From Leptolyngbya iicbica LK (lineage in GTDB: Bacteria; Cyanobacteriota; Cyanobacteriia; Phormidesmidales; Phormidesmidaceae), in the NCBI RefSeq assembly GCF_004212215.1, contig NZ_QVFV01000004.1:62001-126000 (forward strand): a stretch of DNA of 64,000 nucleotides, read 5' to 3'. Below the pieces are notes generated by a model. It had not been told where the DNA came from. It worked only from the letters and a program-made list of their open reading frames with translations, and did not search any database. Positions 16,745 through 19,927 of this stretch are shown one piece after another; the stretch's first letter is position 1, and every line of letters begins with the position of its first letter. Both the position numbers and the translations under genes were made by a program.

Positions 16745-16857
16745 CCTGGCATCGACATACCAGCTTCCTTGTAACGGGTTGTGCGATCGCCTTGCGCAAT
16801 CTAGGTAATTTATGGAAAATGAATATAGTTTATTTGTACTATTTTGAGGTTGAGCCG

Positions 16858-17100
16858 ATGATACCTCCTGCCGCTACGTTTCAAATTAACGTCGTCGATG
16901 GTTTTCGCCTGGGCTGTTTGCAAGTGCCTTTAGCTCAAGTTGCTGATTGGCTGAACTTTTTGGTGACGCCTCACTATCGCGTTGACATCATCTCGTCTGA
17001 GCAAGTGGGCGATCGCTTACACATCCATTTCGAGGCCAGCGAAGGACTCTACGCCTACCTGGAAAACCGCCTGATGGACACTCTAGAATTCGCCGCCTAA
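16858..17100 (+). CDS. Small conserved cyanobacterial-type protein, function unknown
   Basis: The 80-residue product begins MIPPAATFQINVVDGFRLG and has alternating hydrophobic strands and one helix (DWLNFLVTPHYRV). The C-terminal part is LYAYLENRLMDTLEFAA. No family recognised. The frame opens earlier (16792, or ATG 16819) but the upstream residues look unlike the rest. It reads in the same direction as the VOC gene, 113 bp later. Confidence 0.6.
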   Translation: MIPPAATFQINVVDGFRLGCLQVPLAQVADWLNFLVTPHYRVDIISSEQVGDRLHIHFEASEGLYAYLENRLMDTLEFAA

Positions 17101-17228: not shown

Positions 17229-17376
17229 TCATACCAATTTCCTTTTGAAATGTCCCACATAGCTTCTGTCAGGGATTCACCGGACTCGGAGGCTGCGATG
17301 GAACCCGTTGAACTTGCTGAACTTTGGATATGGGACATTTCAAATCTAAAACTGTATCAAAACTAAATTCGTATGA
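17229..17376. mobile_element. MITE-like repeat with nested inverted ends
   Basis: The outer ends are TCATACCAATTT (17229-17240) and AAATTCGTATGA (17365-17376), inverted with 11 of 12 matches. Inside them TTTGAAATGTCCCA (17244-17257) and TGGGACATTTCAAA (17331-17344) are exact inverse copies. The 148-bp interval has no reading frame. This is the shape of a miniature inverted-repeat element. Its right end abuts the stop codon of the pentapeptide gene. No transposase is present nearby. Confidence 0.5.
17328..17359 (+). repeat. Left copy of 32-bp direct repeat around the pentapeptide gene
   Basis: This 32-bp segment, starting ATATGGGACATTT and ending TGTATCA, is repeated at 18531-18562 with 28 of 32 identical bases in the same orientation. 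The two copies flank the pentapeptide-repeat gene on both sides. Confidence 0.7.
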
Positions 17377-17379
17377 CAG

Positions 17380-18471
17380 TTAGAGATTAAACCAATTGTC
17401 CCGATTGAAGATTACTTGGCCATTGGCCAGCTTTCTGAGTACATAAAAGGTCTTCCCTTCTACGCTTGGTACAAGGAGTATATTGCCGCTTTCTTCAGGA
17501 TTGATACTCATCTCTTTGCAGTTACGGTTTCGCAGACGTAGATCAACTCCTTCAGGCAGAAAAGTACAGCAGAGTTTCGCCTGGGCTAGCTGTTTCTCTG
17601 TAAAGTCAACAGCACCTTCCAAATTGGCGGAACAAAGGAAGGTGCCCTCCAAGATGGTTTGCGATAGGCTGGCACCTTCCAGGTTAGCGGAACAAAGTAA
17701 AGCACTTTCCAAAATCGTTTGCGATAGGTTGGCTCCTTCCAGGCGTGCTTCTTGAAGGTCAGCTCCTTGTAAGTAGGCTCCCTGAAGAATAGCCCCTTGT
17801 AGGTGAGCGTACCTAAATCTGGTCCCTTCCAGGCGAGCGTAGCTAAGTGTGGCATTTTCCAAGTTAACCCATTCCAGATCAGCTCCTTCCAGGCGTGCTT
17901 TTCGAAGTTCAGCCCCTTTTAAGTAGGCTCCACTCAAGACCAAGGGGTGGCTATCAAATGTAGTTTCGCGTCGTCCAATAACGGTTAATGCGCTCTGAAC
18001 CTCTTGCCTTGGTTTATTGGGCTTTCCATATTCGCCAGATTGTGTTTTCTTCCTTATAAATGCTGTCAGCACCTCCATCACGACTGGATGATCCTTCCTC
18101 GAATCTCTGGCGATGCGCTCAAGTGAATAGACCCCTCCAAGTCTGACCTCTAACTTCTCATCGGCCAGCATCTCTACAGCTTTGGCAAAGCGGTCTGTGA
18201 CATTCTTATCTTCAGTCAAGCGAATATTTTTTAGCGTCAATCCAGCTGTCACTAGAAAGAACAGGCCACCTAGAGCCTGAATCGCTGTCTTTCGATACTC
18301 ATTCTCTAGAGCGGCTTTGTCTTTACCACTTATCTGCGTCTGCGACACTTGCCAATTAGGGAGCCAGCCTACAGTAACGACAGCCAGTAGGACAACACCC
18401 AGGCTACCTAGCCAGAACTTGGCCTTAGAAAGGCGTTGTAGCGGCTTGACATTGGCTTGACGTTTTTTCAT
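17380..18471 (-). CDS. Membrane-anchored pentapeptide-repeat protein
   Basis: The 363-residue protein has two N-terminal membrane helices (FWLGSLGVVLLAVVTVGWL and AIQALGGLFFLVTAGLTL). A conserved helical region follows (RFAKAVEMLADEKLEVRLGGVYSLERIARDS), then about 120 residues of A(D/N)LxX pentapeptide repeats (from near residue 182 to 300), which form a right-handed beta helix. The protein is likely a membrane-attached scaffold; the family's role in cyanobacteria is unclear. The gene holds no GCGATCGC (HIP1) site, unlike most neighbours, and lies between 32-bp direct repeats. It is convergent with the upstream plus-strand genes. Confidence 0.88.
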   Translation of the reverse strand: MKKRQANVKPLQRLSKAKFWLGSLGVVLLAVVTVGWLPNWQVSQTQISGKDKAALENEYRKTAIQALGGLFFLVTAGLTLKNIRLTEDKNVTDRFAKAVEMLADEKLEVRLGGVYSLERIARDSRKDHPVVMEVLTAFIRKKTQSGEYGKPNKPRQEVQSALTVIGRRETTFDSHPLVLSGAYLKGAELRKARLEGADLEWVNLENATLSYARLEGTRFRYAHLQGAILQGAYLQGADLQEARLEGANLSQTILESALLCSANLEGASLSQTILEGTFLCSANLEGAVDFTEKQLAQAKLCCTFLPEGVDLRLRNRNCKEMSINPEESGNILLVPSVEGKTFYVLRKLANGQVIFNRDNWFNL

Positions 18472-18530
18472 GACCTCAGTCTAGGGCCTTGAAGCTTGTT
18501 AGGCTATGCACTGCCACTAGCTGAATGTGT

Positions 18531-18562
18531 ATATGGGACATTTTAAAGCTGAAAATGTATCA
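18531..18562 (+). repeat. Right copy of 32-bp direct repeat
   Basis: Matches 17328-17359 at 28 of 32 positions. Its last three bases are the reverse of the rsmB stop codon, so that gene ends exactly inside the repeat. Confidence 0.7.
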
Positions 18563-19927
18563 CATCCTGCGTCCCAACCGCACCATAAAGAATCCATCCA
18601 TGTTGGCTTGATGCGGCCAGACCTTGACCCAGCCTTCCGGCGTGGCAAATGCAGCGGTGGGTTCCCCAGTTTGCGGCGGCAAAATTTGCCAATCGGGGTG
18701 AGTGGATAGGAACTGCTCAATGACCGCTTCGTTTTCCATCGGGTGCAGGGTGCAAGTGGCGTAAACCAAAGTGCCTGTGGGTTTTACCCAAGTGGCCGCA
18801 CGGTTGAGCAGGCGCAACTGTAGAGCGGCTAATTCTTGGACTGATGCCGGTGTCTGTCGCCAGCGAGCATCGGCATGACGGTGCAGGGTGCCCAATCCTG
18901 AACACGGGGCATCTACCAGCACGCGATCGCCCTCACCTTCAAATTTGGTGATCTCAGTGCTATCGCCCTGGCAGGTTTGGATGCAGTTTAGCTGTAAGCG
19001 GCGGACGTTTTGCGAAATCTTTTTCAGGCGGGATGGGGTGCGATCGCAGGCCCAGATCAGTCCTTGATCGCCCATTAATTCGGCTAAATGGGTGGTTTTG
19101 CCGCCGGGGGCAGCGCAGGCATCAACTACCAAGTTTCCCGGTTGCGGGGCAACGAGAGTACTGACGAGTTGCGCACTAGCATCTTGCACGGTCCAGTGAC
19201 CCTCGGCGTAGCCTGGCAGCGCCTGAATCGCCCCCGCAGAGGGCGGCAGCCGGAGTGCTTGGGACAAATGCGGCAACGCTGTCACCGTAATACCTGCCGC
19301 CGCCAAGCTTTGTTGCACCGCCTCACGGGACTGTTGCAGCACATTTACCCGGAGGTCAATGGCAGGTGGCTGGTTAAACCAGTCACACAAGGCAATGGCG
19401 TCGGTCTCACCGAGTTGCTCCAGCCATAGCTCCACCATCCAATCGGGGAAGCTGTGCTGAATGCCCAAAGCCGTCACGCGATCGCTGGGCAACGTGAGGG
19501 GATCCACTCCTGTTTGGCGACGGCGAATGTACTGGCGCAAAATGCCGTTCACCACTCCCGAGAGCTTGCCTTTGCCCAGCGCTTTGGTTAGCTCCACACT
19601 GGTATTGACCGCTGCCGACTCCGGTACTTGGGTCAAAAATCGCAGTTGATAAAAGCCCAAATGCAAAATTACGCGCAGTTCCGGTAATTGCTGGTGGGCG
19701 GGCTTTTTGCCGAGTTGGTCAATCAGAGCGTCCAGGGTGCGCTGCCGTCGCACTGTGCCGTAGACTAACTCGGTCGCAAAGGCGCGATCGACCGCACTGA
19801 GTTTGACCTTGGCAAGTAACCGATGCAGCACGACATCGGCATAGCCGCCGCGATAAATTTCCTTTAAAGCGTCAAACGCCAACCTTCGGGCTGGCGATTG
19901 CGCGTTAGATGATGATGGAGTGGTCAC
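18560..19927 (-). CDS. rsmB: 16S rRNA m5C967 methyltransferase RsmB
   Basis: The 455-residue enzyme transfers a methyl group from S-adenosylmethionine to C967 of 16S rRNA. Residues 10-150 form the NusB-like RNA-binding domain (DRAFATELVYGTVRRQRTLD). The Rossmann domain has VDACAAPGGKTTHLAELM, the catalytic-cysteine motif VDAPCSGLGTLHR, and the second catalytic cysteine in YATCTLHPMENE. Length is normal for the family. The stop codon falls inside a 32-bp repeat at 18531-18562. A small membrane protein gene lies 24 bp upstream in the same orientation, so these may be co-transcribed. Confidence 0.95.
   Translation of the reverse strand: MTTPSSSNAQSPARRLAFDALKEIYRGGYADVVLHRLLAKVKLSAVDRAFATELVYGTVRRQRTLDALIDQLGKKPAHQQLPELRVILHLGFYQLRFLTQVPESAAVNTSVELTKALGKGKLSGVVNGILRQYIRRRQTGVDPLTLPSDRVTALGIQHSFPDWMVELWLEQLGETDAIALCDWFNQPPAIDLRVNVLQQSREAVQQSLAAAGITVTALPHLSQALRLPPSAGAIQALPGYAEGHWTVQDASAQLVSTLVAPQPGNLVVDACAAPGGKTTHLAELMGDQGLIWACDRTPSRLKKISQNVRRLQLNCIQTCQGDSTEITKFEGEGDRVLVDAPCSGLGTLHRHADARWRQTPASVQELAALQLRLLNRAATWVKPTGTLVYATCTLHPMENEAVIEQFLSTHPDWQILPPQTGEPTAAFATPEGWVKVWPHQANMDGFFMVRLGRRM

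Follow-up and report, generated by a model that had tools for sequence, protein, structure and literature searches.

How did a pentapeptide-repeat gene come to lie between direct repeats next to rsmB in Leptolyngbya iicbica LK? In the 64,000-nucleotide stretch of DNA that was analysed (the window), this gene occupies positions 17380–18471 on the minus strand and encodes a 363-residue pentapeptide-repeat protein (PF00805, E = 9.1e-33). The initial annotation had described a 32-bp direct repeat on each side of it, with 28 matches in 32, and this is borne out to the base, as 17328–17359 and 18531–18562 are identical at 28 of 32 positions and differ at the other four. A longer version of the pair matches at 30 of 35 nucleotides; the best of 200 mononucleotide shuffles of the 2 kb after the repeat reached 22 of 35. 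Next to the gene lies a 148-bp block (17229–17376) with inverted arms (17231–17260 and 17328–17357, 77% complementary), which stops 3 bp short of the gene's stop codon (17380–17382).

The flanks of this arrangement are neighbours in related strains. On one side lies the intact rsmB gene (18560–19927, minus strand; 16S rRNA methyltransferase RsmB/F family, PF01189, E = 2.4e-63), which is 89% identical in the congener G004. On the other side is a small conserved ORF (16822–17100, plus strand) that adjoins rsmB in G004, G005 and G003, with identities of 82%, 72% and 66%, respectively. The gap between the flanking protein matches is 1465 bp here, compared with 259 bp in G004, 197 bp in G005 and 55 bp in G003, and the gaps in G005 and G003 are too short for the unit. 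Junction alignment covered G004 and G005, and only G004 resolves the junction: its left 24 bp match at 22 positions and its right 45 bp at 38, with a single TCA between them (1000 mononucleotide shuffles reached 15 of 24 for the left flank), while the G005 junction does not align (15 of 24 and 30 of 45). In our strain TCA is present twice, at 17229–17231 and at 18560–18562, the second copy being the rsmB stop codon TGA, as is evident from its own translation and from the same stop in G004. Relative to G004, 17229–18562 amounts to a single net insertion that duplicated 3 bp, and rsmB was kept intact because the duplicated TCA is its stop codon. The earlier proposal that the gene moved as a repeat-bounded cassette beside rsmB is thus supported, since a comparison of the rsmB locus for an empty site finds it uninterrupted in G004, preserved to the base. 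It had also been proposed to look for the opposite picture, with gene and repeats at the same place in all relatives and no other copies of the block; this was checked and did not occur.

The 148-bp MITE-like block reported at the gene's stop is real, but it is composite, being made of a MITE and a 17-bp remnant of another end. The complete MITE (17229–17359, plus strand) measures 125 bp from TAC to GTA and 131 bp with its flanking TCAs, has arms that are 77–80% complementary and contains no ORF of at least 80 residues; it has an 87% identical copy on contig C2 and related copies in G005. Its left terminal inverted repeat (LE, 17232–17260, plus strand) also serves as the outer left end of the cassette and scores 41.7 of 49.8 in an end profile that includes LE itself. 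Its right terminal inverted repeat (RE1, 17328–17356, minus strand), recognized from the inverted arms and the end profile, is the inner copy of the direct repeat. Beyond the gene, a right-end remnant (RE-B, 18516–18559, minus strand) forms the outer right end of the cassette; it is 83% identical to element positions 84–131, and its profile score of 31.3 is the lowest of the 32 profile ends. The direct repeats are right-hand transposon ends of one element family, which corrects the initial annotation. Between the MITE and the gene, the remaining 17 bp (17360–17376, minus strand) are the tail of a second, older right end, matching the end variant TCATACGAATTTAGTTT at 17 of 17 positions, with two known ends as the runner-up matches in the window (15 of 17). 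A right end contains CATTTCAAAACTAAA, and exactly AAACTAAA comes after the right-hand TCA of the MITE. Read in the simplest way, this means that the MITE inserted at a TCA within an older right end beside the gene, that is, in a nested fashion.

The block is one of a small family of cyanobacterial miniature elements, whose members mostly span 125 or about 115 bp between their outer ends, with ends near TACGGTTTTAGTTTTGAAATGTCCCATAT or like TACGGTTTTAGTTTTGAAATGTCCCA. The search for the 148-bp element elsewhere in the genome, which had been suggested earlier, found the MITE in full once more (C2:1222372–1222502, 87% over 131 bp), along with two short partial matches that include the right end at 18516–18562. 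The elements are dispersed: this genome has two full copies as well as additional ends, and more occur in G005 (several MITE relatives), G004 and G012. A search of 10 chosen genomes at up to 3 mismatches gave 39 ends in total, of which 9 lie in this genome and 18 in G005, and none for the reversed control; 32 of the 39 were used to build the end profile. At up to 2 mismatches, ends occur in 8 of 388 genomes of the class. The exact end pattern was found at three places in genome_contigs, all in Leptolyngbya sp. SIOISBB, and gave no match in viral_contigs. The bare 14-base core of the end is present in 10 of 59 genomes; the core-only cases G053, G056, G018, G026 and G037 were not counted, since the rest of the end is absent there (16–21 of 29).

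The offsets between left and right ends are mostly 96 or 85–86 bp, with one of 104 bp, and the outermost two bases are TA in most ends. TNA stands outside 38 of the 40 ends examined, a count that leaves aside those at G041:C47, G003:C99, G001:C143, G012:C3:721631, G005:6627767 and G241:C424, whose flanks were not fetched, as well as ends scoring below 20 in the end profile. Both flanking trinucleotides agree in 5 of 13 paired elements, namely in all 4 from this genome (two of which share an end) and in 1 of 9 from relatives, so that the TCA duplication rests mainly on the empty site. Solo left ends also occur in this genome (G000), at L106:102–130 on contig C7, upstream of a sulfotransferase-like gene, and at L107:4049–4077 on contig C1, upstream of a TPR gene; no right end was found near them, so that they represent either eroded cassettes or isolated remnants. 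Ends that have diverged further, such as TACGGTTTCAGTTTTGAAACGTCATAGAT (L006:2896–3010, L007:937–965 and L113:1012–1126), point to a sister subfamily of these elements that is older.

As to the passenger, the 363-residue protein has two hydrophobic N-terminal stretches, with hydropathy peaks near residues 19 and 62. The GC content of its gene is 47.8%, compared with 54.4% for the window, which places it in the lowest 3% of windows of that size. Among the matches listed for G001–G005 (34 candidates scored per genome, the list holding no row for G004), none is full-length; the best E-values range from 6.6e-14 to 7.2e-18, and the congener matches listed cover the repeat half only, starting at residue 145 or later. 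The best relative, in G023 of another genus in the same family, is 46% identical over residues 10–325 and has one internal stop. As far as we have seen, the passenger gene is foreign to the genus. The 19 homologue loci that were fetched have no convincing end (15–20 of 29), so that they point to no donor. The 1334-bp unit has no DNA similarity to the phage and plasmid records searched, and all plasmid protein matches of the gene are below 60% identity, with none covering 80%. A Qnr-like function was rejected (27.6 bits against a family cut-off of 240), as was a link to defence (no PADLOC match). The absence of HIP1 sites from 17380–18471, pointed out in the initial annotation, is confirmed and extends to the whole unit. 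As support for a foreign origin it is too weak: with 123 HIP1 sites in the window (1.92 per kb), 2.1 are expected in the gene and the Poisson chance of none is 0.12, and 52 of 1254 windows of 1334 bp are also free of HIP1.

The pentapeptide gene is not the only gene enclosed by these ends. Among the places listed, the only convergent end pairs more than 240 bp apart are this genome's two cassettes, the second being a pair of the same ends at G000:C1:1357007–1357754 (748 bp), with TCA on both sides (G000:C1:1357004–1357757; L105:3005–3758). Its passenger differs from the pentapeptide gene; it is a 146-residue ORF with strong hydrophobic stretches (membrane-like) that has no Pfam, PADLOC or NCBIfam match. 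Of 95 genomes searched, only this one and G021 contain a match to the ORF, and the other 93 have none. G021 represents another genus, with an rsmB that is 65% identical, and it carries the ORF in two pieces: one of 160 bp (93.1%), which starts 8 bp ahead of the ORF's start codon, and one of 363 bp (91.7%), which continues past the end of the gene into the right end but lacks the final 4 bp of that end. No left end turned up in G021, where the copy is split over two contigs. This DNA-level match of gene and right end makes it most likely, judging from sequence, that the two moved together between genera. At the break, the two G021 contigs (L138:1–80 and L139:1640–1717) share CCTAACGAT, a pattern suggestive of an IS that inserted with duplication of its target. 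In G004, the genes that flank the second-cassette site are about 25 kb apart and the stretch between them does not align; a degenerate right-end-like stretch (GAAAACTCAGCCGTATCA) lies near mtnP in G004 (L116), close to the position of the second cassette here.

Neither cassette carries a transposase, and candidates for the mover were sought elsewhere. Judged by end pairs, no autonomous element was found among the places listed, either in the 10 genomes (up to 3 mismatches) or in the 388 class genomes (up to 2 mismatches), and the end-pair lists hold no intact transposase copy with these ends. We have examined 15 PF13586 transposase loci in four genomes; a search for long inverted repeats gave none like these ends, and 7 of the 15 had no pair at all. 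A direct scan found a 21/29 end, flanked by TCA, in one of them (L129, G004:C107), beside an IS630 fragment; in the other 14, the best stretch agrees at only 15–18 of 29 positions. The G004 fragment (L129:1271–1491) shows DDE_3 homology (PF13358, E = 3.3e-9), with the end directly behind its 3′ end, and resembles the sequence immediately interior to the G005 end at 7453158 (82.6% over 23 residues). When a full IS630 transposase from a Chroococcidiopsis plasmid was used as a tblastn query against the loci retrieved and the window, the only matches besides the reference plasmids were in G005:C1 near 7453158 (E = 3e-15) and in G004:C107 (E = 7e-8). They lie just inside a 26/29 and a 21/29 end, respectively, and both ends stand directly behind the 3′ end of the gene. 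The G005 fragment (L103:4736–5186) is 44% identical to the IS630 transposase, and its gene is broken by stops and frame changes. A DDE_3-type transposase is thus present beside ends of this family, both copies being remnants; the three IS630 copies on the reference plasmids are without these ends (at most 17 of 29).

Since decayed IS630 genes directly precede such ends in G005 and G004, an IS630-family transposase is most likely what moved the ends. IS630 elements are associated with TA target duplications. The outermost two bases of most ends are TA. The empty site in G004 supports a duplication of TCA, with no TA at the junction, and the duplicated unit looks like TCA at both the rsmB site and the nested site.

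Genes that travel without a transposase are known from other bacteria. A mobile insertion cassette consists of two inverted repeats with no transposase nearby and usually a target duplication, and mic-qnrD carries qnrD, a pentapeptide-repeat gene, as described in PMC3913671. As in MIC231 of Bacillus cereus and mic-qnrD of Proteeae (PMC3913671), the gene here lies between transposon inverted repeats with a target duplication: the outer inverted repeats are at 17232 and 18559, there is no transposase inside, and TCA is duplicated. Unlike in these two, the ends are different, the duplication is the 3-bp TCA, the location is a cyanobacterial chromosome and one border consists of an entire MITE plus a nested end; moreover, unlike the mic-qnrD product, the protein here is far below the Qnr cut-offs. 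MITE-bounded composites that bracket and move DNA have also been described (PMC13367494, PMC3934969, PMC10969869), and the TIME-COMPs and the MITE-flanked integron of Acinetobacter johnsonii resemble our unit in having MITE copies around the moved DNA. TIMEs derive from Tn3-family transposons, whereas the ends here go with an IS630 transposase. Only the left element is a complete MITE here, the right one being the last 44–47 bp. The unit works like a mobile insertion cassette or a MITE-bounded composite, a known kind that is new in this lineage. The collection of papers searched contained none on pentapeptide repeats with miniature inverted-repeat elements in cyanobacteria, nor any on Leptolyngbya MITEs.

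Taken together, 17229–18562 is probably a non-autonomous, transposase-less cassette that was moved as a unit by a trans-acting transposase after a MITE had become nested in it. We infer the following order. First, the MITE would have entered the right end of an older element copy beside the gene, in a donor; then an enzyme acting in trans, most likely an IS630-family transposase, would have recognized LE (17232) and RE-B (18559) and carried the 1328-bp unit to the TCA serving as the rsmB stop codon, where duplication of these 3 bp would have restored the stop. Several points speak against this reading: its two outer ends derive from different copies that have diverged, the places listed include no intact autonomous copy, the empty site shows TCA where IS630 elements are associated with TA, the flanking trinucleotides agree in only 1 of 9 pairs from relatives, and the homologue loci fetched point to no donor. 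The link to IS630 answers part of the main objection.

The same layout of direct repeats and the same outer TCA pair would also arise if a single MITE had entered the rsmB stop first and the gene had been added later by recombination at the right end. We regard this course as unlikely. RE1 differs from the intact C2 copy at 2 positions in 32 bp and RE-B at 5, and in the outer 15 bp the two differ from it at 2 and 4 positions, respectively, so that RE-B looks like a separate copy and not like the MITE's own displaced end; the recombination would have had to take place within about 30–47 bp, and the 17-bp nested tail would be left unexplained. A variant of the preferred explanation, in which a cassette of LE, gene and RE-B arrived first and the MITE came later at, or in place of, its left end, has a somewhat better, though still small, chance of being correct. 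The 748-bp unit on C1 shows that simple cassettes exist in this genome, and at 17360 an insertion nested in an end can be seen; on the other hand, the old end beside the gene has the orientation of a right end, not of a left one, and the left end of the MITE touches the original chromosomal flank directly. That the unit is ancestral and was removed in G003, G004 and G005 seems highly improbable. Some transposon families do excise precisely, but this account has to accommodate three congeners without the unit at the site and no full-length gene match listed among five congeners. The cassette moved as a whole after MITE nesting accordingly stays our preferred explanation.

The locus offers a base-resolved case in which ordinary genes of a cyanobacterium move on the ends of miniature elements, with an empty site, a target duplication and a second cassette that reaches across genera, while most of the precedents compared concern resistance genes. 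It is also conceivable, as a tentative and rather doubtful generalization, that this lineage harbours a system of transposase-less cassettes, in which one IS630-type end pair would carry unrelated single genes, genes together with their ends would pass between genera, landing at TNA on TGA or TAA stops would be made harmless by a duplication that rebuilds the stop, and new genes would be captured via nested MITEs. If true, this would imply an IS630-type machinery that duplicates 3 bp of the form TNA, which would be unusual in its own right. The rsmB site shows how an insertion can spare a conserved neighbour gene by duplicating its stop codon, and the cassettes indicate that genes can move without a transposase of their own, on ends that are now tied to a testable transposase family.
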